Shown here: positions 34,339 through 64,000 of the stretch, one piece after another
Position numbering within the stretch: the first letter of the stretch is position 1
Layout of the letters: every line of letters starts with the position of its first letter
Assembly (NCBI RefSeq): GCF_016908145.1
Contig: NZ_JAFBDI010000009.1
Coordinates: forward strand, 1 to 64,000
Direction: 5' to 3'
DNA: 64,000 bases
Source of the DNA: Marinitoga litoralis
GTDB taxonomy: Bacteria > Thermotogota > Thermotogae > Petrotogales > Petrotogaceae
Notes under the pieces: generated by a model
The model's database searches: none
What the model saw: only the letters and a program-made list of their open reading frames with translations
What the model was told of the DNA's origin: nothing
Made by a program: the position numbers and the translations under genes

Positions 34339-34716
34339 TCATATATCAAAAATAACATTTATTATATAATTATCATCATTTGAAATAACTTTAGGATATG
34401 AAATAGCTTTTATTTCAGTTTCTGGATTTAGTTTTAATATTTTTGAAAAAAATATTTTTAATTCATCATCGTTTTTTTCGATTTTCGAAGGAAAATAACC
34501 TTCATAAATTTTATTTAAAGAGTAATTACCAATATCAAATAAAATATCATCAAATTCCTTATTTGAAATAGAATATGAAAAATGGTTCTCAATTCCTCCT
34601 ACTAAAGGTAAAAAAACTTTATTTAAAGCGTCAAACAAATCCTCTAAAAGGTCAATAATATTTTCACCATTTAATTCGAACATAATATCAGCAGGATGAT
34701 TTAATTCTTTACTCAT
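34339..34716 (-). CDS. Archease family protein
   Basis: This is a 125-residue protein. The N-terminus [20 protein letters not shown] matches the archease start D-H-T-A-D-I-x-F-x-x-x-G, with Asn replacing the first Asp. The C-terminus [24 protein letters not shown] keeps I-K-A-x-x-Y and the final Asp metal ligand (shown in part: [13 protein letters not shown]). Archease activates the RNA ligase RtcB; no rtcB is in the window. The third of three consecutive ATG codons (34716) is best placed for the GGTGGT site; it overlaps the gyrA end by 8 bases. Confidence 0.85.
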
Positions 34717-37141
34717 CATCATCAACCACCACAGCAGCATCAGCAACTGTATCTTCATTGTCTAATCTTAAAGCTCTTACACCAATAGCATATCTACTTA
34801 AAGTAGAGATTGTTTTTACTTCTTCTCTAATAGCTTTACCTAATTTTGAAAAAACAATAATATGACTATCATCATCAACAGTTAAAGCTTTTACAATGTC
34901 ACCTATTCTAGAAGTTTCTTTTACACATTTTAGTCCTACTCCACCTCTATTTTGAAGTCTAAAATCATCAAAATTTACTCTTTTTGCAAAACCATGTTCT
35001 GTTATCAATAATAAACTCTTATCTTTTACAACAAGGACACCATTAACAACATTATCGTTTTCTCTTAATTTTATAGATCTAACTCCAGCAGCAGATCTAC
35101 CCATTGGCCTTACATCAGCTACTTTAAATCTCAAACTCATACCTTTTTTACTTATAACTAATACTTCATCGGAATTATTTACTATTAATGCATCAACAAC
35201 CATGTCATCTTCTTTGATTGTTATAGCTTTTAATCCATTTTTTCTAATATTAGAAAATTCATTTAAAGCTGTTCTTTTAACAATTCCATTTTTTGTAAAT
35301 AACATAATATATTTATTTTCAATATCTTTTTCATTTTCAATAGGGATAATGGTTTTAATTTTTTCATCATTATCTAAATATAAATAAGATGAAATATGTT
35401 TTCCTTTTGTTTCTTTTGAACTCTTTTCAATGTTATATGCATATAATTCAAATGCTTTACCCTTAGAGGTTATAAATAATAATTTTGAAAGGCTATTAGT
35501 TTGTAATACTTGAATAATAAAATCGTTATCTGATTTTTTAATAGCTTTAGAACCTTTCCCACCTCTATTTTGAACCTTGTACTCTGTACTTTTCATCGCT
35601 TTAATATAACCCCATTGTGTTAATACAATAACCAAATCTTCTTCTTCGATATTATCAGCATCTTCTACTTTTGAACCTTGATTAGTAATTTTTGTTTTTC
35701 TTTCATCTCCAAATTTTTCTTTTACTTCTTTAAGCTCTTCTTTGATAACTTCTAACATTTTAGATTTGTTATTTAAAATTTCCATTGCATCTTTAATTTT
35801 TTGAGTTAATTCGGCATATTCTTTTTCTAATTTTTGCCCTTCTAATTTTGATAAGCTAATCAATCTCATATCAACAATTGCATTTGCTTGTTCTTTAGTT
35901 ACATTAATTATTTCCATTAAACTATTTACGGCTTCTTCTCTTCCTTCAGATTGTCTAATAATTTCAATAACTGATTCTATACCTTCAGAAGCTTTCATTA
36001 ATCCTTCTACAATATGAGATCTTTTTCTCGCTTTATCCAATTCAAATTGAGTACGTCTTGTTACAACATCAATTCTATGGTCTATAAATGCCTCTAATAT
36101 TTGTTTTAAATTCATTACTTTAGGTTTTCTTTTATCTATTACAGTCATTTGAACCGCAAAAGATGTTTGCAATGAAGTATGTTTTAATAATTGATTTATT
36201 ATTCTTTGAGGATTAACATTTTTCTTTAATTCTATTACAACACGAATACCTTCTTTATCAGATTCGTCTCTAATATTCTTAATACCTACATCTTTTTTAT
36301 TTTCCTTTTGCTTTGTAACATAATTTGCTATTTGGGTAATTAAATCAGCTTTTGAGACTCCGTACGGGATTTCATTAATTACGATACTAATTCCATTTTT
36401 ATTTTCTTCTAATTCATATTTTGATCTAATATGAAAAGAACCTCTTCCAGTTTCATAAATTTCTTTTAATTTATTCCCATCAACTATTATTCCTCCAGTT
36501 GGGAAATCTGGACCTTTAATATAATTCATCAAATCATTAATGTTAGAATCTGGATTATCAATTAAATGAGTGATTCCATCAACTAACTCATTTAAATTAT
36601 GAGATGGAATATTTGTTGCCATACCAACGGCAATTCCATTAACACCATTCATTAAAAGATTTGGCAATCTAGTAGGCAAAACTGATGGTTCTTTTAAAGA
36701 ACCATCAAAATTATCCAACATATCCACAGTATTTTTATCTATATCCATTAGCATATATTCTGCTAATTCATGCATTTTTGCTTCGGTATATCTCATTGCA
36801 GCAGGTGGATCTCTATCAACAGAACCAAAATTACCTTGACCAATAACTAAAGGGTATCTTAAACTAAAAGGTTGAGCCATTCTAACTAAAGCATCATATA
36901 TTGCAGCATCACCATGAGGGTGATACTTACCCATTACTTCTCCAACAATACGGGCACATTTTTTATATGCTGCAGTATGTTTTAAACTTAGTTCATCCAT
37001 TGAATATAAAATTCTTCTTTGAACAGGTTTAAGGCCATCCCGAACATCTGGTATAGCCCTACTGGTAATAACACTTAAAGAATATAAAAGATAAGATTCT
37101 TTCAATTCTTCTTCAAAAGATTTATTTAAAATATCGCTCAT
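34709..37141 (-). CDS. gyrA: DNA gyrase subunit A
   Basis: This is an 810-residue subunit that breaks and rejoins DNA. The breakage domain has [37 protein letters not shown] and the active Tyr in [12 protein letters not shown]. The C-terminal pinwheel contains the gyrase box [11 protein letters not shown], which marks GyrA rather than ParC. The quinolone region position equal to E. coli Ser83 is Ala (GDAAIYD), a residue linked to low quinolone sensitivity. It lies 13 bases after metG. Confidence 0.97.
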
Positions 37142-52675: not shown

Positions 52676-55294
52676 ATGGATATTGGAAAAAGATATACTC
52701 CTAATGAAATTGAAACAAAATGGTATAAAACATGGCTTGATAATCATTTATTTGAAGCTAAGGGGGAAGGTAATGGCAAATTTTCAATGGTTATACCTCC
52801 ACCTAATATAACTGGAAAAATACATATGGGACACGCATTAAATATATCTTTGCAAGATATAGTTACTAGATTTAATAGAATGCAAGGTAAGGATACTCTA
52901 TGGTTACCGGGTGAAGACCATGCAGGAATTGCGACTCAACATGTTGTTGAAAAGTTCTTATTGAAAAGCGAAGGAAAGAGAAAAGAAGAGTATGGAAGAG
53001 AAGAATTTTTAGAAAGAGTTTGGAAATGGGCAAATGAATATAGAGAACATATAAAAAAGCAAATAATGGCTATAGGTGCTTCAGTTGACTGGTCTAGAGA
53101 AAGGTTTACTCTTGATGAAGGTTTAAATAAAGCTGTAAGAAAAGTTTTTGTTGAATTATATAATGAAGGATTAATATACAAAGGTAAGTATATAGTTAAT
53201 TGGTGCCCTAGTTGTGGAACTGTTCTATCAGATGAAGAAGTTGAACATAAAGATGAACACGGAGCATTTTATCATATAAAATATCCTATAAAAGGTGAAG
53301 ATGATTATATAATTATTGCTACAACAAGACCTGAAACTATGTTAGGAGATACAGCAATAGCTGTTCATCCATCAGATGAGAGATATAAGGATTATGTAGG
53401 AAAAGTAGCTATTTTACCGCTAGTAGGAAGAGAAATTCCTATAATTGCTGATAAATATGTTGACCCTTCATTTGGTACAGGCGCATTAAAAGTTACACCT
53501 GCTCATGATCCAAATGACTATTTAATGGGTCAAAGACATAATCTAGAAACTGTGCAAATAATGGATGAATTTGCTAATATAAATGAAAATGGTGGTAAAT
53601 ATGCAGGTTTAAATAGAAAAGAAGCTAGAAAAGCAGTAGTTGAAGATTTAGAAAAAGAAGGTTATTTAATTAAAATAGAAGAAATGGTACATTCTGTAGG
53701 ACATTGTTATAGATGTGATACAGTAGTTGAACCATTTTTATTAGATCAATGGTTTGTAAAAATGAAACCATTAGCTGAGAAAGCTATTGAAGCAGTTGAA
53801 AAATCTGATGTAAAATTTTATCCTGATAGATGGAAAAAAGTTTATTTAAATTGGATGAATGAAATAAGAGATTGGTGTATATCAAGACAATTATGGTGGG
53901 GACATAGAATACCAGTTTGGTATTGTGATGACTGTGGTCACACAAATGTTTCTGAAGAAGATATTCATGAATGTAAAAAATGTGGTTCTAAAAATATTAG
54001 ACAAGATGAAGATGTTTTAGATACATGGTTTAGTTCAGCATTGTGGCCATTTTCTACTTTAGGCTGGCCTGAAGAAACAGAAGATTTGAAAAAATATTAT
54101 CCAACAGATTTATTAGTTACAGGTTTTGATATTATTTTCTTCTGGGTAGCAAGAATGATTGTTATGGGCGAAAAGTTTATGGATGATAAGCCATTTTCTG
54201 ATGTATATATTCATCAATTAGTTAGAGATAAACAAGGAAGAAAAATGTCAAAATCATTAGGTAATGGTATAGATCCGTTAGAAATTATTGAAAAATTTGG
54301 TGCTGATCCTATGAGGTTTACTCTCTCAATATTAGCAGCGCAAGGAAGAGATATTAAATTAGATCCAAAAGCTTTTGAGTCCTACTCAAAATTTGCAAAC
54401 AAGATTTGGAATGCAACAAGATTTGTATTATTAAATATGGATGACTTTGAAAAAATAGAATTGACACCAGATATGCTTGAATTAGAAGATAAATGGATGC
54501 TATCAAGATTGAATAATACTATTAAAGTAGTAACTGAATCCTTGAAAAAATATGAATTTAATATAGCGGCAAGAGAATTATATGATTTCTTCTGGAATGA
54601 ATATTGTGATTGGTATATTGAAGCAGTAAAGAATAGATTAAAATCTGAAAATAAAAAAATTGCTCAAAATGTTTTAGTTAGAGTTTTAGATTCTTCATTA
54701 AGATTATTGCATCCATTCATGCCATTTTTAACAGAAGAATTATGGCAAAATATACCTAAAATAACTGATGAAAAGTATTTAATTACAGCAAAATGGCCTG
54801 AATATATAGAAGAACATAAATTTGACAAAGAAGAATATGAGTTTGAAAAGATAAAAGAATTTATTAGAGGTATAAGAAATGTAAAAGCAGAAATTAATTT
54901 ACCTCAAATTACAAAAGTAGAAGTATCATATAAAGCATTAGATAATTATGAATGGATTATAAAAAATGAAGAATTAATAAAAGAATTAGCTTTTGTAACT
55001 AAACTCGAAAAAGTAGATGAAAAACCTGAAAGATCAGCAACATCATATGTTGATGATAACATTGAAGCTTATGTTAAATTGGGAGAATTGATAGATATTG
55101 AATCCGAAAAAGAAAGACTAAATAAAAAGAAAGAAAAATTAGAAAAAGAATTTATGAAATATGATAAAAAATTAAATAATAAGAAATTTTTAGAAAATGC
55201 ACCAGAAGATGTTATTGAAGAGGTTAAAGAAAATCACTCTTTAGTGAAAAGTCAAATAGACAAATTGGTAAAATTATTAGAGGAGTTAGAATAA
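52676..55294 (+). CDS. valS: Valyl-tRNA synthetase
   Basis: This is an 872-residue class I synthetase. The HIGH motif is IPPPNITGKIHMGHALN, the editing domain has ATTRPETMLGDTAIAVHP, the KMSKS loop is GRKMSKSLGNGIDP, and the Val-specific WCISRQLWWGHRIPVWYC is present. Zinc-type Cys pairs are CPSCGTVL and CDDCGHTN/CKKCGS. The C-terminal coiled coil (LIDIESEKERLNKKKEKLEK in part) is typical of ValRS. Ribosome site AGGAGG. It starts the valS-folC-ruvA-glmU-prs-rplY-pth group. Confidence 0.98.
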   Translation: MDIGKRYTPNEIETKWYKTWLDNHLFEAKGEGNGKFSMVIPPPNITGKIHMGHALNISLQDIVTRFNRMQGKDTLWLPGEDHAGIATQHVVEKFLLKSEGKRKEEYGREEFLERVWKWANEYREHIKKQIMAIGASVDWSRERFTLDEGLNKAVRKVFVELYNEGLIYKGKYIVNWCPSCGTVLSDEEVEHKDEHGAFYHIKYPIKGEDDYIIIATTRPETMLGDTAIAVHPSDERYKDYVGKVAILPLVGREIPIIADKYVDPSFGTGALKVTPAHDPNDYLMGQRHNLETVQIMDEFANINENGGKYAGLNRKEARKAVVEDLEKEGYLIKIEEMVHSVGHCYRCDTVVEPFLLDQWFVKMKPLAEKAIEAVEKSDVKFYPDRWKKVYLNWMNEIRDWCISRQLWWGHRIPVWYCDDCGHTNVSEEDIHECKKCGSKNIRQDEDVLDTWFSSALWPFSTLGWPEETEDLKKYYPTDLLVTGFDIIFFWVARMIVMGEKFMDDKPFSDVYIHQLVRDKQGRKMSKSLGNGIDPLEIIEKFGADPMRFTLSILAAQGRDIKLDPKAFESYSKFANKIWNATRFVLLNMDDFEKIELTPDMLELEDKWMLSRLNNTIKVVTESLKKYEFNIAARELYDFFWNEYCDWYIEAVKNRLKSENKKIAQNVLVRVLDSSLRLLHPFMPFLTEELWQNIPKITDEKYLITAKWPEYIEEHKFDKEEYEFEKIKEFIRGIRNVKAEINLPQITKVEVSYKALDNYEWIIKNEELIKELAFVTKLEKVDEKPERSATSYVDDNIEAYVKLGELIDIESEKERLNKKKEKLEKEFMKYDKKLNNKKFLENAPEDVIEEVKENHSLVKSQIDKLVKLLEELE

Positions 55295-55295
55295 A

Positions 55296-56609
55296 ATGAT
55301 TTCAAATTTGAAAGAAGCTGTTGATTATATATATGATAGACGTGGTGGTACGAGAATAAAATATGGATTAGAAAGAATAAATAAATTATGTGAGTTATTG
55401 GGGAATCCTCAAAGGGATTTCCCAGTTATTCATGTAACAGGTACGAATGGTAAAGGAAGTACTTCAAAAGCTATACATGATATTTTAAAAGGTCATGGAT
55501 ATAATGTGGGATTATTTATATCTCCACATTTAACTAATATAACTGAAAGAATAAAAATCAATTCAAATCCTATAAAAGAACAAGAATTTGTTGAAACTTT
55601 AAATGAAATGATAATGCCTATAGAAAAGATGGATACAAAAGAAGATATGTCACCATCATTTTTTGAAATAATGACAGCGTTAGCTTTAAAATACTTTTCT
55701 AGTAAAAAAGTAGATGTAGTTGTATTAGAAGTGGGACTTGGTGGGAGATTAGATGCTACTAATGTAGTGCATTCAGATGTTTCAGTAATAACAACAGTTC
55801 AGTATGATCATATGAATTTATTAGGAAACACTTTAGAAGAAATAGCATTTGAAAAATCTGGTATTATTAAAAAAGGTAATAATGTCGTTTTAGGGAATAT
55901 TTCTGAATCTGCAAAAAAAGTTATATATGGAAGAGCAAATGAAGTAGGAATAAATAAATTATTTGAATTTGGCAAAGATTATAATTATAGTAATGCTATT
56001 TTTTCATTAAATTGGAATTCAATAGATTATAATAGTGTATTTAATAAGATAGAAAATATAGTATATAAAGCGAATGGAACATATCAACCACATAATGTAT
56101 CAACTGCAATAATGGCTGTTGAAGCTTTTTTTGATAAAAAAGGAGTAAATTTAGATATCGAAAAAACAAAGAATTCACTTAAAAGATATATTTGGGAAGG
56201 TAGATTTGAATTAATAGAATATAATAATAAGAAATTTATTTTAGAAGGGGCTCATAATATATCTGGAGCATTAGCTTTAAAAAATTCAATAAAAACTTAT
56301 ATAAAAAAATTTAGTAAGGCTGCATTGATAGGGATTTTAGATGATAAAGATGTTGAAGGAATGATAAAAATATTATCGGATGATTTTGATTGTATAGTAG
56401 TAACTCAGGTTCCGAATAAACGCTCTGAAAATCCTGAAAAAGTCTATAATTTATTTAAAAAATATTCGAAAAATGTTGTTTTTGAAAAAGATCCAATTGA
56501 AGCTTTTAAAAAACTTTATTCAACACCTTATGAATATTATTTTATAACAGGTTCATTGTATTTGGTAGGGAAAATCAGGGGTTATATATTTAATCTGGAG
56601 GAAATTTAA
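55296..56609 (+). CDS. folC: Dihydrofolate/folylpolyglutamate synthase
   Basis: This is a 437-residue Mur-ligase-like enzyme that adds glutamate to folates. The P-loop is VTGTNGKGSTSKAI (about 48-61), the omega-like segment is SPHLTNITERIKIN, and the VVLEVGLGGRLDATNV motif and the central VITTVQYDHMNLLG are present. LEGAHN marks the C-terminal domain. One base separates it from valS; the last A of its stop TAA is also the first base of the ruvA ATG, so translation is coupled to ruvA. Confidence 0.95.
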   Translation: MISNLKEAVDYIYDRRGGTRIKYGLERINKLCELLGNPQRDFPVIHVTGTNGKGSTSKAIHDILKGHGYNVGLFISPHLTNITERIKINSNPIKEQEFVETLNEMIMPIEKMDTKEDMSPSFFEIMTALALKYFSSKKVDVVVLEVGLGGRLDATNVVHSDVSVITTVQYDHMNLLGNTLEEIAFEKSGIIKKGNNVVLGNISESAKKVIYGRANEVGINKLFEFGKDYNYSNAIFSLNWNSIDYNSVFNKIENIVYKANGTYQPHNVSTAIMAVEAFFDKKGVNLDIEKTKNSLKRYIWEGRFELIEYNNKKFILEGAHNISGALALKNSIKTYIKKFSKAALIGILDDKDVEGMIKILSDDFDCIVVTQVPNKRSENPEKVYNLFKKYSKNVVFEKDPIEAFKKLYSTPYEYYFITGSLYLVGKIRGYIFNLEEI

Positions 56610-57166
56610 TGATAAGAAAGATAAAAGGTTTAATTAATAAGTTGGATTCAGATGAAATAATCATACAAAGCGGGAATTTTTTCTTTGAAAGCATTCCAAC
56701 ATTTAGAATTCTTAATAATTGTAAAGAAAATGAAGAATACATATTTCATACTGTTCTTGAAACAAATGAATGGAATATCTCTTTATATATTTTTTATGAT
56801 GAATTTGAAAGAGAAATGTTTTTAAATTTAAAAAAAGTATCTAAATTAGGTGCAAAAAGTGCATTAAAAATTTTACAAAGTGCTGATGCTGAAAGTATAG
56901 CATCAATGATTTCGGCAAATGATTTAAACGGTTTATCAAAATTACCTGGTGTTGGCAAAAAAACTGCAGAAAGAATTGCAAATGAATTAAAAGATAAATT
57001 TGATGTATTTATAACTAATGATAATAGTACAAAACTAAATGATGCTTTAAATGCTTTAGAAGCATTAGGATTTGAAAGAAACAAGGTATTTAAGGTATTA
57101 AAAGAAATGGATATTGAAAATTTATCTTTAGAAAATATAATTACACAAGCTTTGAAGAAATTGTGA
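56609..57166 (+). CDS. ruvA: Holliday junction helicase subunit RuvA
   Basis: This is a 185-residue protein binding four-way DNA junctions with RuvB. An OB-like N-terminal domain is followed by helix-hairpin-helix motifs: LKKVSKLGAKSALKIL and LSKLPGVGKKTAERIANELK (in part GVGKKTAERI). The C-terminal RuvB-binding three-helix domain is KLNDALNALEALGFERNKV. It is slightly short compared with about 200 residues. ruvB is not adjacent. Ribosome site GGAGG. Confidence 0.92.
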   Translation: MIRKIKGLINKLDSDEIIIQSGNFFFESIPTFRILNNCKENEEYIFHTVLETNEWNISLYIFYDEFEREMFLNLKKVSKLGAKSALKILQSADAESIASMISANDLNGLSKLPGVGKKTAERIANELKDKFDVFITNDNSTKLNDALNALEALGFERNKVFKVLKEMDIENLSLENIITQALKKL

Positions 57167-57225
57167 TAATATCTTAATTTTAATTAATGAAAATAATGTT
57201 AAAATATATAAGTCGGGGGTGTGTT

Positions 57226-58575
57226 ATGAGAGTTTTAATTTTAGCAGCTGGACTAGGAACTAGAATGAAATCTAAGTACCCAAAAGTAATGCATAAAATT
57301 ATGGGGAAAGAACTGGTAAATTGGGTTATTGATACTGCAAAAAAATTAAATCCATCAAAAATAGCTGTTGTTTTAGGTCATAAAAGTGATTTAGTAGAAA
57401 AAATATTACCTGATGATATTGAAATATATTATCAAAAAGAACAATTAGGGACAGGTCATGCTGTTATGTCAGCAAAAGAATTTATTACTAATGAGGATGT
57501 TTTGATACTATACGGAGATACTCCATTAATAACTGTAGATACATTAAAGAATTTAATAAATAAGCATAAAGAAACTAAGGCAAATGCTACAATTTTGACA
57601 GCAATTTTGGATAATCCTACTGGTTATGGTAGAATAATTAAAGATTCTCAAGGAAAAGTATTATCAATTGTTGAAGAATTAGAAGCGACAGAAGAGCAAA
57701 AAAAGATAAAAGAAATTAATGCAGGATTTGTTATATATAAGGGAGATAAACTTCTTGAAGGTTTATCAAAAATAAATGCAAATAATAATAAAGGTGAATA
57801 TTACTTAACTGATGTGCCAATTTATATTGATAATGTTGAAACTTATGTTTTAAATGATTTTTCTGAAGTTTTAGGGATTAATAATAGAGTGCAATTAGCA
57901 GAAGCTGAAAAGATAATGAGAAAAAGAACTTTAAATAAATTAATGTTAAATGGAGTTACTATAATTGATCCAGATACAACCTATATATCTCCTGATGTAG
58001 AAATAGGTCAAGATACTATAATTCATCCTATGACATTTATTTTTGGAAATACTATAATAGGTGAAGAATGTGAAATTGGGCCAATGACTAGAATAAATAA
58101 TTGTAAAATCGGTAATTTTGTAAAAATAATTAGATCTGAATGTGAAGAAGCAGTAATAGATAATAATGTATCAGTTGGGCCATACTCAAGATTAAGAACC
58201 GGAACTCATTTAAAGGAAAATGTGAAAATAGGAAATTTTGTAGAAACTAAAAAAACTGTTGTTAATAAAAATTCTAAAGCTCAACATTTAACTTATTTAG
58301 GTGATGCAACTATTGGAGAAAATGTAAACATAGGTGCAGGTACTATTACATGTAATTATGATGGTAAAAATAAGCATAAAACTATTATTGGAGATAGAGT
58401 TTTTGTTGGTAGTAATACAGCATTAGTTGCTCCTGTAAATATTGATGACGATGCATTAATAGGTGCAGGATCGACAATTACAGAAGATATACCCAAAGGT
58501 TCTTTAGCTCTAGGTAGAGCTAAACAAGTGACAAAAGAGAATTGGGTATATAAAAAGAGGGAGAAAGGAGAGTAA
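57226..58575 (+). CDS. glmU: Bifunctional UDP-GlcNAc pyrophosphorylase / GlcN-1-P acetyltransferase
   Basis: This is a 449-residue enzyme making UDP-GlcNAc for peptidoglycan. The N-terminal nucleotidyltransferase has LILAAGLGTRMKS, the Q-LGTGHA segment and LYGDTPLI. The C-terminal left-handed beta-helix acetyltransferase has GPYSRLRTGTHL, KIGNFVETKKTVV, HLTYLGDATIGENVNIGAGT and the catalytic His in Q-H-L-T-Y-L-G-D. The ATG at 57226 is chosen because GGGGGTG lies just upstream; an earlier in-frame ATG (57187) lacks one. Confidence 0.96.
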   Translation: MRVLILAAGLGTRMKSKYPKVMHKIMGKELVNWVIDTAKKLNPSKIAVVLGHKSDLVEKILPDDIEIYYQKEQLGTGHAVMSAKEFITNEDVLILYGDTPLITVDTLKNLINKHKETKANATILTAILDNPTGYGRIIKDSQGKVLSIVEELEATEEQKKIKEINAGFVIYKGDKLLEGLSKINANNNKGEYYLTDVPIYIDNVETYVLNDFSEVLGINNRVQLAEAEKIMRKRTLNKLMLNGVTIIDPDTTYISPDVEIGQDTIIHPMTFIFGNTIIGEECEIGPMTRINNCKIGNFVKIIRSECEEAVIDNNVSVGPYSRLRTGTHLKENVKIGNFVETKKTVVNKNSKAQHLTYLGDATIGENVNIGAGTITCNYDGKNKHKTIIGDRVFVGSNTALVAPVNIDDDALIGAGSTITEDIPKGSLALGRAKQVTKENWVYKKREKGE

Positions 58576-58579
58576 AAAA

Positions 58580-59536
58580 ATGCCTTTTTCAATGGCCCAT
58601 GAAATTAAAATATTTTCTGGAAGTTCTAATCAAACATTAGCAGAAAAAATAGTTCAATATCTTGGTGTGAGATTAAGTGAAGTTGAATTAGAAAGATTTG
58701 CTGATGGAGAAGTAAATTTAAGAATAGGTGAAACTGTTAGAGGACTGGATACATTTATTATCCAATCCACTTCAAATCCTGTAAATGATAATTTAATGGA
58801 ATTGCTAATAATGATTGATGCATTGAAAAGAGCTTCTGCTAAAACAATTGCAGTTGTAATTCCATATTTTGGATATGCTAGACAGGATAGAAAAGCAAAA
58901 GGAAGGGATCCAATATCAGCAAAATTAGTTGCTAATTTATTAACAGTTGCTGGAGCGACAAGGGTTGTTACAATTGACTTGCATGCTGAACAAATTCAAG
59001 GTTTTTTTGATATTCCTGTAGATAATTTGATGGGATTCCCTGTATTCGTAAATTATTTTAAAAATGAATGTACCGAATTTGATCCTCAAGATTCTGTTGT
59101 TGTTTCTCCTGATGTAGGTGGAGTTAAAAGAGCTAGAAAATTAGCAGAAAAATTAGATTTGCCTTTAGCTATTTTAGATAAAAGAAGACCAAAAGATAAT
59201 GTTGCAGAAATTGTTAATATTATTGGAGATATTGAAGGTAAAACTGCTATAATATTTGATGATATAATTGATACAGGTGGTTCTTTGGTTGGAGCTGCTG
59301 AAATGTTAAAACGAAAAGGTGCAAAAAAAATAATTGCTTGTGCAACTCATGGAGTTCTTTCCAAAAATGCAAAGGAAAAGTTACAAAATTCAGTTATTGA
59401 AAAAATATATGTTACAGATACAATATATCATAATGATTTGCCAGATAAATTTACTGTGTTATCTGTGGCATCATTACTCGGTGAAACAATTGCAAGAATA
59501 AAAAACAATTTATCAGTAAGTATATTATTTAAGTAA
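58580..59536 (+). CDS. prs: Ribose-phosphate pyrophosphokinase
   Basis: This is a 318-residue PRPP synthase. Signatures are IKIFSGSSNQTLAEKI, the flexible ATP loop PYFGYARQDRKAKGRDPIS (in part), VVSPDVGGVKRARKLA and the PRPP loop IIFDDIIDTGGSLVGAA. It supplies PRPP for nucleotides and for Apt. It is 4 bases after glmU, with AAAGGAGAG upstream. Confidence 0.97.
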   Translation: MPFSMAHEIKIFSGSSNQTLAEKIVQYLGVRLSEVELERFADGEVNLRIGETVRGLDTFIIQSTSNPVNDNLMELLIMIDALKRASAKTIAVVIPYFGYARQDRKAKGRDPISAKLVANLLTVAGATRVVTIDLHAEQIQGFFDIPVDNLMGFPVFVNYFKNECTEFDPQDSVVVSPDVGGVKRARKLAEKLDLPLAILDKRRPKDNVAEIVNIIGDIEGKTAIIFDDIIDTGGSLVGAAEMLKRKGAKKIIACATHGVLSKNAKEKLQNSVIEKIYVTDTIYHNDLPDKFTVLSVASLLGETIARIKNNLSVSILFK

Positions 59537-59578
59537 AAGATTAGTAAAAAATAATTTATTTATATAGGAGGGATACAA

Positions 59579-60196
59579 ATGGCAAAAGCATACCAACTAA
59601 AAGCTATTGAAAGAAAGGAAAATGAAAAAGCAAATCATATTAAACACGAAGGATTTATCCCAGCAGTTGTATACGGACCTGGGTTAGAAGGTGGAAATTT
59701 ACATTTAAAAATTTCTGCTGTTGATACAATTTTAATGCTTGATAAAATTGAAGAAACTACTCCAATTCAATTACTTGTTAAAAAAGAAAATGGAGAAGAA
59801 TATAAAGTAACTACATTTTTAAAAACAGTTCAAAGACATAAAGTTTCAGACAAACCTATACATGCAGATTTTTATGTTCCAGCAGCAGGTCATAAAATGC
59901 ATATGAACATTCCTATGGAATTTGTAGGGGAAGCTAAAGGTTTATCAAAAGGTGGAATTTTAGAAGTTCATCACCATGAATTACCTGTTGAAATATTACC
60001 AAAAGATGTAGTAGAAAAATTTGTTGTAGATATTTCTGGTTTAGATATCAATGACCATATTACAGTAAGTGATTTAAATATTTCTGAAGAGATTGATGTA
60101 TTATTAGATCCAGAAGAAATTGTTGTTGCAATAACAGCACCTAATGTTTCAGTAGAAACTGAAGAAGAAGAAACAGAAGAGGGAGAAGAAGCTTAA
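59579..60196 (+). CDS. rplY: 50S ribosomal protein L25/Ctc
   Basis: This is a 205-residue, two-domain CTC-type L25. The N-terminal 5S-rRNA-binding domain has GFIPAVVYGPGLEGGNLHL and the QRHKVSDKPIHADFY segment; the TL5 C-terminal domain has IPMEFVGEAKGLSKGGILEV and HHHELPVEILPKDVVEKF (in part). A short Glu-rich tail ends the protein. Ribosome site GGAGGG. It lies just before pth, the usual order. Confidence 0.96.
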   Translation: MAKAYQLKAIERKENEKANHIKHEGFIPAVVYGPGLEGGNLHLKISAVDTILMLDKIEETTPIQLLVKKENGEEYKVTTFLKTVQRHKVSDKPIHADFYVPAAGHKMHMNIPMEFVGEAKGLSKGGILEVHHHELPVEILPKDVVEKFVVDISGLDINDHITVSDLNISEEIDVLLDPEEIVVAITAPNVSVETEEEETEEGEEA

Positions 60197-60199
60197 TAT

Positions 60200-60775
60200 A
60201 TGAAATTAATATTAGGTTTAGGAAATCCAGGCCCACGTTATGTTTTTACAAAACATAACGTGGGGTTTTTGGTTGTTGATAGATATTATGAAGTAAATAA
60301 AAGTAATTTAAAAAAAATAAGTAAAAAAATTTTCGAAGGTTATTATAATGATGATATTATGCTTATAAAGCCTTTGACTTATATGAATTTAAGTGGCAAG
60401 ATCTTTTATGAACTAAAAAATAAATATGTAAAACCAGAAGATGTAATTGTAATATATGATGATGTAACCTTGGATATTGGAAAAATAAGAATAAGGCCAA
60501 ACGGATCTGCTGGTGGTCATAATGGTATGAAATCAATTATTTCTGTACTTCAGAGTACAGATTTTCCAAGGATTAGAGTTGGAATAGGTCCAAAACCTGA
60601 ATATATGGATTTAGCAGATTACGTTTTAAGTGAGTTTTCTGATGAGGAGTATTATAAAATAAATAAGGTTATTGATAATATTATTCCTGCAATAGATATG
60701 ATTATTGAAGGAAAAATTTCAGATGCTATGAATAAGTTTAATAATAAAAACTTAATTGGAGATGAAAAAATATGA
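60200..60775 (+). CDS. pth: Peptidyl-tRNA hydrolase
   Basis: This is a 191-residue enzyme freeing stalled peptidyl-tRNAs. Motifs are LGLGNPGPRYVFTKHNVGF with the catalytic His in KHNVGF (about residue 20), KPLTYMNLSGK, VIYDDVTLDIGKIRIRPNGS (in part) and SAGGHNGMKSII. It starts 3 bases after rplY without a strong ribosome site of its own, suggesting coupling. A perfect inverted repeat plus T run lies within codons 11-24. Confidence 0.96.
   Translation: MKLILGLGNPGPRYVFTKHNVGFLVVDRYYEVNKSNLKKISKKIFEGYYNDDIMLIKPLTYMNLSGKIFYELKNKYVKPEDVIVIYDDVTLDIGKIRIRPNGSAGGHNGMKSIISVLQSTDFPRIRVGIGPKPEYMDLADYVLSEFSDEEYYKINKVIDNIIPAIDMIIEGKISDAMNKFNNKNLIGDEKI
60232..60270 (+). promoter_or_regulatory. Terminator-like hairpin inside the pth coding region
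   Basis: CCCACGTTATGTTTT (60232-60246) and its exact complement AAAACATAACGTGGG (60250-60264) form a 15-bp stem with a 3-base TAC loop, followed by G and TTTTT (60266-60270). It has the form of an intrinsic terminator but lies 32 bases after the pth start codon, so it could attenuate transcription after rplY. Confidence 0.8.
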
Positions 60776-61203
60776 AGTGTCAGCTTTGTGGTAAAAATGA
60801 AGCTGAATATATTCAAAGATTTGATAATGATGGGATAGAAACAAATATAGCATATTGTCATAAATGTATTAAAGAAATAACAAATCATCATACTGTATAT
60901 ATTAATGAAAAGTTATTGAATTTATATTCAACCAAGATATTTTATAGAAATAATTTTCCAATAAAAGATGAAAATATTGAATTAAAAAGTATTAGAAGTC
61001 GAGTTTTTATTGAATTGCCTGTGCAAGTAAAAAGGTTTTTATTTATAGAAGATGAAAATTCAAAATTAAGAGATGCGCAAACAATTATTAGAAGAGGATT
61101 AAATTTTTGGGAAAAAGAGTATGAAAAGGCTAAAAAAGAATTTAATGAAGAAAAAATGAAAGTTATTGAGGATATAATAAAAAGAATAAAAAAACTTATG
61201 TAA
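60772..61203 (+). CDS. Zinc-finger protein with UvrB/UvrC-like C-terminus (McsA-like)
   Basis: This is a 143-residue protein. The N-terminus has two Cys pairs, CQLCG (3-7) and CHKC (30-33), forming a likely zinc site. The C-terminal FWEKEYEKAKKEFNEEKMKVIEDIIKRIKKL (in part) is a helical pair like the UVR domain. The layout resembles McsA, which activates McsB arginine kinase with CtsR/ClpC, but no mcsB, ctsR or clpC is adjacent. It overlaps pth by 4 bases (ATGA). A terminator follows. Confidence 0.75.
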   Translation: MKCQLCGKNEAEYIQRFDNDGIETNIAYCHKCIKEITNHHTVYINEKLLNLYSTKIFYRNNFPIKDENIELKSIRSRVFIELPVQVKRFLFIEDENSKLRDAQTIIRRGLNFWEKEYEKAKKEFNEEKMKVIEDIIKRIKKLM

Positions 61204-61230
61204 CCGGCAATTTTTTGCCGGAATTTTTTT
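61204..61230 (+). terminator. Terminator at the end of the valS-to-zinc-finger group
   Basis: CCGGCAA / TTGCCGG stem with a TTTT loop followed by AA and seven T residues, beginning at the stop codon of the zinc-finger gene. Confidence 0.92.
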
Positions 61231-61283
61231 ATTTAATTTATGTTATAATAGTACTATAAATGTAAAATGAGGGGAGGATTTAG

Positions 61284-63263
61284 ATGCAGTTATTGAATTT
61301 AAGTGGTATTGTTTTTGGTTTAATAGGTATTATATTCACAGTTTTTTTGACTTTTAAAGTTTTAGAAAATTCTCCAGGAAATGAAAAAATGCAAAAAATT
61401 TCTGGAGCAATTCAAGAGGGGGCAAAAGCATTTTTATTATCTGAGTATAAAATATTATATATTATAGTTATTGTTATTTTTGTCTTATTAGGATTAGTTA
61501 ATGGATGGAATATGTCATTATCCTTTTTACTTGGAGCGACATTATCTGTAGCTTCAGGTTTTTTTGGTATGAGTATAGCAACTAAAGCAAATACTAGAAC
61601 TGCGCAAGGAGCAATTGAATCATTAAATAAAGGATTAAAAATAGCTTTTAATGGTGGAGCAGTAATGGGTATGACTGTTGCTTCTCTAGGTCTATTCGGA
61701 TTAGGATTAGTATATTACTTAACTAATGGAGATACAATTTCTATGAGTGGATATGCAATGGGAGCATCTTTGGTTGCACTTTTTGCTAGAGTTGGTGGAG
61801 GTATTTTTACAAAAGCAGCAGATGTAGGTGCGGATTTAGTAGGGAAAACCGAAGCTGGAATACCAGAAGATGACCCAAGAAACCCCGCTGTAATAGCTGA
61901 TAATGTAGGAGATAATGTTGGTGATGTAGCTGGTATGGGGGCTGATTTATATGAATCATTTGTCGGTTCTATTTTTTCAGCATCTGCTTTAGGATTAATA
62001 GTATTTAAGGAAAATGGAGCAGTTTTTCCATTTTTGGTAGTATCTATAGGTATTTTATCAGCTATTATAGGTATTATTATCTTCAACTTATATATAAAAA
62101 ATAAAGATAATATTGATCCATCTAAAGCTTTACATTTTGGGACTTATATAGCTAATGGATTAACATTATTAGGAGTATTATTCTTGTCATTAATATTTTT
62201 AAATACAATAAAAGCATTTGTCGTTATATTTTTAGGAATGGTTGTAGGAATGATTATTGGTAATATTACAGAATATTATACTGCAAAAAATCCTGTAAAA
62301 CAATTAGCTAATAGTGCTGTTAGTGGAGCAGCTCCATTATTAATTAATGGTATGGCAATTGGAATGGAATCTACTGCAATACCAGTAATATTAATATCTA
62401 TCGTAACAATTGTATCTTATTATTATCTTGGATTATTTGGTATTGCTTTAGCGGGTGTTGGTATGCTTTCAACATTAGGTATTACGTTAGCTATAGATGC
62501 ATATGGACCTATAGCAGATAATGCCGGTGGTATAGCACAAATGGCAGAATTAGATTCTTATGTTAGAGAGAGAACTGATCAATTAGATGCTGTAGGAAAT
62601 ACAACAGCTGCTATAGGAAAAGGATTTGCAATTGGTTCAGCTGCTTTAACAGCATTAGCACTTTTTGCATCATACACTCAAGTTGCTGGACTTTCTATTA
62701 TTGATTTATCAAAATCGAATGTATTTATTGGTGCTCTAATTGGTGGAATGTTGCCATTTTTATTTTCTGCAATGGCAATGAAAGCAGTAGGAGATGCTGC
62801 GGAAATTATGGTACAAGAAGTTAGAAGGCAATTTAGGGAAATAGTTGGGTTGATGGAAGGAAAGGCAGAACCAGATTATAAATCATGTGTTTCTATAGCA
62901 ACTAAAGGAGCATTAAAAAAGATGGTTGTTCCTTCATTATTAGCTGTTTTTATGCCAATATTAATGTATATAATTTTAGGAAAAGAATCAGTTGCTGGCA
63001 TGTTAGTCGGAACAACAGTTTCAGGGGTTATGTTAGCTATATTTATGGCTAATGCAGGAGGAGCATGGGATAATGCTAAAAAATATATTGAAGAAGGTAA
63101 CTTTGGCGGTAAAGGTACCTTTGCACATAAAGCATCTGTAATAGGAGATACTGTAGGAGATCCGTTTAAAGATACAGCGGGCCCTGCAATAAATATTTTA
63201 ATAAAATTAATGTCTATAATTTCTATTGTAGTAATTCCTATATTAATAAAAATATTTGAATAA
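61284..63263 (+). CDS. hppA: Membrane-bound ion-pumping pyrophosphatase, K+-dependent type
   Basis: This is a 659-residue membrane protein of about 15-16 helices that couples PPi hydrolysis to pumping H+ or Na+. The active-site segments are [40 protein letters not shown] and the C-terminal [20 protein letters not shown] (in part), plus [18 protein letters not shown]. The [10 protein letters not shown] motif has Ala where K+-independent enzymes carry Lys, so it should need K+. The pumped ion is undecided; the Thermotoga enzyme pumps Na+. Ribosome site GGGGAGG. The next gene is PFK-like, 38 bases away. Confidence 0.95.
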
Positions 63264-63301
63264 TATTAATAAATAATTAATATTGAGTGAGGGGGTTCAA
63301 T

Positions 63302-64000
63302 ATGAAAAGAATAGCGTTATTAAATGTTGGTGGAGATTGTCCTGGATTAAACAGTGCTATAAGGGCTCTAGTTAGAAAATCTGCGATAGAGGATATAGAG
63401 GTTTTAGGTGTATATGATGGGTTTAAAGGGTTTTTAGACGATAGGGTTTTTGTTATGACTAAAGAGCATGTATCAGGTATTTTAGAAAGAGGGGGGACAA
63501 TTTTAGGTTCTTCAAAATATGATCCAACAGAAAATCCTGAAGATATGAAGAAATTAAAAGAAAATTTTGAAAAATACCAAATTACTGCATTTGTAATAAT
63601 GAGTGGTCATACTGGTACAGGGATAGCATTAAAACTATCTGAAGAAGGAATGCCTTCAATTGTAATACCAGCAACTATTGATAATGATCTACCTTGGACA
63701 GATTTTAGTATAGGATTTTTTACTGCATTAGAAACAGTTACTAAAACTTTAGATTCCTTACACTCAACAGCTAGTGCTGGACATAGAGTTATTGTTGTTG
63801 AGGTTGGTGGTGATGAAGCAGGATGGCTAGCAACACTTGGCGGATTAACAGGTGGAGCAGATTATATTCTTGTACCTGAAGTTAAATTTGAACCTGATAA
63901 ATTGATAAATAACATAAAAAAAAGATATGATGAGGGTAAAAAATTCTCTATTGTAGTTGTACAAGAAAAATGTAATTTATCTGATAAATTAAAAGAAAGT
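63302..64000 (+). CDS. Phosphofructokinase-family protein with changed active-site motifs (3' truncated)
   Basis: The first 233 residues are in the window; the gene continues past the right edge. The fold is clearly PFK: GGDCPGLNSAIRALVR (10-25), GGTILGSSK (64-72), IPATIDNDLPWTDFSIGF (122-139) and GGADYILVPE. Numbering happens to match E. coli PfkA. Asp127 and Asp129 (TIDND) and Arg162 are kept. However, the GGDGS motif (Asp103) is SGHTG with His103, the M-G-R sugar-phosphate motif (169-171) is GGD, and Arg72 is Lys. It fits neither ATP-type (GGDGS) nor PPi-type (GGDDT). Ribosome site GAGGGGG precedes the ATG. Confidence 0.88.
   Translation, partial: MKRIALLNVGGDCPGLNSAIRALVRKSAIEDIEVLGVYDGFKGFLDDRVFVMTKEHVSGILERGGTILGSSKYDPTENPEDMKKLKENFEKYQITAFVIMSGHTGTGIALKLSEEGMPSIVIPATIDNDLPWTDFSIGFFTALETVTKTLDSLHSTASAGHRVIVVEVGGDEAGWLATLGGLTGGADYILVPEVKFEPDKLINNIKKRYDEGKKFSIVVVQEKCNLSDKLKES

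Follow-up and report, generated by a model that had tools for sequence, protein, structure and literature searches.

A conserved RNA hairpin within the early codons of pth in Thermotogota: a candidate 3'-end signal of the upstream rplY message

The peptidyl-tRNA hydrolase gene (pth) of the Marinitoga stretch analysed here (64,000 nucleotides, the window) carries a perfect inverted repeat within its first codons, which raises the question of why a housekeeping gene should hold a structure resembling a transcription terminator so close to its start. The first-pass annotation had described a 15-bp stem with a 3-nt loop and a T5 tail, beginning 32 nt downstream of the pth ATG at 60200, and both the coordinates and the pairing were borne out (Table 1). 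The genome is Marinitoga-like (Thermotogota, Petrotogaceae), Marinitoga lauensis being its best match among named relatives. The operon runs in the order ruvA, glmU, prs, rplY (L25/TL5), pth and a small CxxC protein gene, followed by a terminator, and only 3 nt lie between the rplY stop and the pth start. The small CxxC protein was found to be without a Pfam match; its relatives adjoin pth in part of the Thermotogota, and T. maritima has one in the same place. The RNA of 60180-60300 folds with -33.7 kcal/mol (z -4.8), and none of 200 shuffles was as good. Within 54000-64000 the pth hairpin is the sole terminator-like site inside a gene, the other site being the operon-end terminator at 61204. 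A second copy of the half-site was not found anywhere in the window with one mismatch allowed, and an Rfam covariance-model search of 59400-61400 gave no credible match. In the literature searched, no description of a pth hairpin or of an rplY-pth operon was found for Thermotoga, and the main text of the T. maritima transcription-unit paper leaves peptidyl-tRNA hydrolase unmentioned (PMC3636130).

Table 1. Positions of the hairpins and neighbouring genes in the Marinitoga window
Feature	Position	Strand	Remarks
rplY (ribosomal protein L25/TL5, CTC)	59579..60196	+	Pfam PF01386, PF14693
pth, peptidyl-tRNA hydrolase	60200..60775	+	Pfam PF01195, E 3e-60
15-bp perfect hairpin, loop TAC	60232..60264	+	inside pth codons 11-22
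Hairpin arms CCCACGTTATGTTTT and AAAACATAACGTGGG	60232-60246; 60250-60264	+	15/15 Watson-Crick
Conserved left arm CCACGTTATG	60233..60242	+	pth codons P-R-Y-V
Conserved right arm CATAACGTGG	60254..60263	+	pth codons H-N-V-G
T5 tail of pth hairpin	60266..60270	+	one G between stem end and tail
Small protein, CxxC...CxxC motif	60772..61203	+	next operon gene; overlaps pth stop
Ordinary intrinsic terminator, operon end	61204..61229	+	
coaE	161-724	minus	start overlaps pgi stop
pgi	721-2088	minus	
coaE hairpin, 14-bp perfect	646-677	minus	47 nt into coaE

The pattern CGTTATG-N8..14-CATAACG was scanned in 103 Thermotogota genomes and 96 pth genes were scored for pairing. One copy per genome was found in 61 genomes, with a spacer of 11 everywhere except in G066; that copy (spacer 14) is a chance match, the pth of this genome lying on another contig. 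Every copy for which pth could be read was located inside pth, at the same codons. The 10-bp stem CC[A/G]CGTTATG-N11-CATAACGTGG is complete in 61 of the 96 scorable genes (610 of 610 pairs formed), a set that includes two genomes deviating from the scan pattern (G081 and G085), while the remaining scored genes form 2 to 9 of the 10 pairs. The arms of these 61 genomes differ solely by A or G at the third position of Pro and, rarely, by wobble or compensated changes, and every synonymous site able to break the stem is frozen. Other genera of the Petrotogaceae, at a Pth protein identity of 54-61%, carry identical hairpin nucleotides. Between families, codon identity reaches 1.00 at R13, Y14, H19 and V21 against an expected 0.27-0.57, and 0.93 at N20 against 0.49. 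By per-codon statistics the hairpin codons are among the strongest synonymous constraints of pth, with R13 and V21 ranking first. The probability that synonymous codon choice alone yields the stem is about 0.002 per genome, in agreement with the first-pass view that the repeat is not dictated by the protein. The comparison of these codons in relatives, which that annotation had suggested, has supported it, and the loss of the repeat in close relatives that would have spoken against it did not occur. Judged from these alignments, the hairpin is no accident and has been strongly selected for across Thermotogota.

The few changes seen in the arms indicate the molecule in which the pairing matters. 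The tolerated ones are wobble changes (A/G at Pro position 3 opposite U, C to T at Asn position 3 opposite G, and one further C to T opposite G), and the compensated ones replace a G-C by an A-T pair at the cost of Arg to His in L143, and an A-T by a G-C pair together with Val to Ala in G101, G102 and G025. Inner stem pairs switch between T-A and C-G from family to family. C.A mismatches would be equally synonymous and never occur in the 61 carriers. This sense-strand wobble, the compensated changes and the absence of C.A point to an RNA hairpin of the sense strand. Moreover, given the protein motif P-R-Y-[VA]...H-N-V-G, pairing alone dictates the codons CC[AG] CGT TAT and CAT AAC GTG (AAT by wobble), so a sequence-specific reader is not needed to account for the frozen letters.

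Genomes without the conserved stem usually have another strong hairpin elsewhere in early pth. In six genomes of three genera (family f10; G086-088 and G097-099) it is a GC-rich structure, TGCTCCCC...GGGGAGCG, which lies about 100 nt inside pth, shows compensatory pairs and is followed by a U-rich tail. G028, G029 and G031 have a hairpin at a similar distance, and in G032, G033, G037, G056 and G100-102 it lies over the GLGNPGP codons. A synonymous shuffle gave p <= 0.03 in 18 of the 26 abutting genomes (no wide gap) that lack the full stem, and in none of the nine genomes with an intergenic terminator, counts taken from related genomes and hence not independent events. The test is imperfect, as p <= 0.03 was also reached over the first 200 nt in 12 of 60 Bacillota pth genes, which serve as a control for pth itself and not for the rplY context; almost none of the Bacillota has a detectable rplY upstream of pth. 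No clear early pth hairpin was seen in six abutting genomes (G021, G026, G027 and G034-036).

The gene rplY lies directly upstream of pth in nearly all Thermotogota genomes examined, and in the hairpin carriers the two genes abut or overlap wherever rplY is visible. The only clade with a real gap is Fervidobacterium-like, as assigned by genome content, with 66-162 nt from the rplY coding end to the pth start. There a strong intergenic terminator, for example AAAAGTCCCCC...GGGGGACTTTT, is present in nine of nine genomes, and a hairpin in the coding sequence in none of the nine pth genes. This clade nests among Thermosipho-like hairpin carriers (support 100/91), and the swap to an intergenic terminator counts as one event. 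As a separate observation, most of the Thermosipho-like genomes G078-G084 (L169, L171, L172, L230, L231, L240) have no in-frame ATG, GTG or TTG near the rplY stop, and their pth apparently starts at ATT, ATA or ATC, a rare type of start codon, a few bases 3' of GGAGG.

The hairpin is probably an RNA element that acts in cis at the rplY-pth junction, namely a 3'-end signal of rplY embedded in early pth. This is the simplest reading of a hairpin that stays just downstream of the rplY stop and gives way to an ordinary terminator where space allows; the embedding would follow from the abutting or overlapping of the two genes, which leaves no intergenic room. The intergenic regions of T. maritima are extremely short (PMC3636130), which would explain the placement within pth. 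We infer from the comparison of genomes that transcripts are ended or stabilised by the hairpin and that the expression ratio of the two genes is set in this way. The rplY message encodes a ribosomal protein and is presumably abundant. The hairpin would form behind RNA polymerase and part of the transcripts would end there, in a leaky form of intrinsic-type termination that would be strongest in Petrotogaceae with their U5-U6 run, and/or the hairpin may block 3'-to-5' decay, the outcome being much rplY mRNA and little pth mRNA. Ribosomes on pth would melt the hairpin, and the fraction of transcripts that continues may thus depend on pth translation.

How far the element resembles a terminator differs between its parts. 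The stable, small-loop stem in RNA expected of a terminator is present and conserved, and this part of the first-pass description stands. The T-run does not stand as a conserved part and is a feature of the Petrotogaceae: T5-T6 follows the stem in all 20 carriers of that family and T3-T4 in other families, where the run is not conserved and T is at most slightly above synonymous resampling. A conserved intrinsic terminator with a U-run was rejected for this reason. The weak U-run outside Petrotogaceae makes simple intrinsic termination doubtful for some species, and would be compatible with leaky termination or with a barrier to decay.

The first-pass annotation had instead proposed attenuation when translation is slow. 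In such a model slow or few ribosomes on pth would let the hairpin form, so that pth and the next gene are not transcribed and a feedback on translation quality results. A distance of 30-40 nt into the reading frame would suit such an attenuator, since an initiating ribosome leaves the hairpin free and an elongating one melts it, and the T5-T6 of Petrotogaceae is in keeping with it; however, the Fervidobacterium-like genomes put the hairpin in untranslated intergenic DNA, elsewhere it sits anywhere between the GLGNPG codons and a point about 100 nt or further into pth, and the U-run is not conserved. The rplY stop and the pth start are too close together for a leader ORF, and folding of 60180-60300 of the window showed no competing structure; translation of pth itself could take that role. 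We consider this explanation unlikely, the relocated hairpins and the rplY-adjacent terminators pointing to rplY, and the proposed link between the expression of pth and that of the zinc-finger gene is weakened by the many carriers in which the latter is not recognisable next to pth.

It is also improbable, to our judgement, that the hairpin tunes pth translation and leaves transcript ends unaffected, whether by pausing early ribosomes, by helping a weak start or by binding a protein (Pth or L25, for example). The apparent ATT/ATA starts of Thermosipho-like pth would agree with help at a weak start, but the hairpin is also present in pth genes with an ordinary ATG. In some families the stem has a length reminiscent of a tRNA minihelix, whereas the loop sequence and the inner pairs are free to vary, and the stem itself moves or leaves the gene, unlike a protein-binding site. 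Mimicry of a tRNA minihelix for autoregulation by Pth was rejected, the loop being variable and not T-loop-like.

That the repeat is a DNA site, either an operator or the chromosome-dimer resolution site (dif), is very unlikely. The palindrome CGTTATG-N11-CATAACG does occur once per genome, as expected of dif, and its arms are letter-frozen, but its changes obey RNA wobble rules and the hairpin shifts in place and sequence in other lineages. A dif/Xer site is ruled out by location: in 17 complete genomes the repeat lies at 0.07-0.42 of the chromosome from dnaA, never opposite dnaA and not at the replication terminus. The GC skew of T. maritima agrees with this, it being the only usable one among four genomes sampled, as the skew was noisy in the other three. 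Least credible, and already refuted, is a by-product of Pth conservation in which Y-[AV]...H-N yields TATG/CATA and the remainder is chance. Many pth genes do gain a 4-bp seed from TAT G and CAT A, but against this reading stand the low chance probability given above, the Bacillota pth genes read, in which no more than 9 of 15 Watson-Crick pairs form at this place, and the variation of Pro and Arg once the stem is gone.

The placement of a 3'-end signal of rplY within pth may have parallels at other junctions. In 2.0 Mb from six Thermotogota genomes, with the window excluded, the opening 130 nt of abutting genes held nine hairpins of at least 11 bp against 1.65 expected (about fivefold, p 1.5e-4), a provisional figure as the gene calls were mechanical. 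Within the window, the hairpin of coaE (Table 1) is kept in five Marinitoga relatives, mostly with compensatory changes, and is relocated in a sixth (L247); it is absent from other Petrotogaceae genera where readable. A 12-bp hairpin (with G-U) was also noted at 55397-55426, about 100 nt into a folC-like ORF (55296-56609) that immediately follows a valS-like one, another abutting pair, and an 11-bp perfect inverted repeat at 36683-36707 inside a gyrA-like ORF (34709-37141, minus strand). Whether Thermotogota repeatedly write the message-end hairpins of upstream genes into early downstream codons, constraining codons and residues (Pro-Arg in Pth) and moving over evolution, is in our estimate a nearly even question; rplY-pth would be the phylum-wide example of such a class of overlapping RNA signals, and pgi-coaE the second.

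Among known systems, intrinsic (Rho-independent) terminators share the G+C-containing stem followed by T-rich DNA, and in the Fervidobacterium-like clade an ordinary one lies between rplY and pth. The pth hairpin differs in lying inside a coding sequence, in being nearly letter-frozen and in its short T-run, unconserved outside Petrotogaceae. In the ribosomal-protein and RNA-polymerase operons of Methanococcus maripaludis, internal termination sets gene ratios (PMC10450193), which resembles the high upstream and low downstream expression proposed here behind a ribosomal-protein gene; those sites are archaeal and mapped by experiment, whereas the pth hairpin is bacterial, lies in the downstream ORF and is known by comparison alone. 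RNA 3' ends inside ORFs, from termination or processing, are reported in Escherichia coli (PMC7815308), and such ends within coding sequence are predicted for the pth hairpin; the portions of that report consulted describe no hairpin at an abutting junction that is conserved through a phylum and relocates. As in leader attenuators of the trp/his type, hairpin formation would compete with ribosomes, but here it lies inside the regulated gene itself, with neither a leader peptide nor an alternative structure found.

Our study describes a housekeeping gene with an embedded RNA signal that is held through most of a bacterial phylum, and in which the codons and two amino acids of Pth were apparently chosen for RNA pairing. 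It offers a concrete and testable account of the way in which an operon with overlapping genes could make much ribosomal protein and little of its neighbour. Conservation of codons and residues of Pth in Thermotogota should accordingly be read with caution, as it partly reflects selection on RNA and not on the protein.
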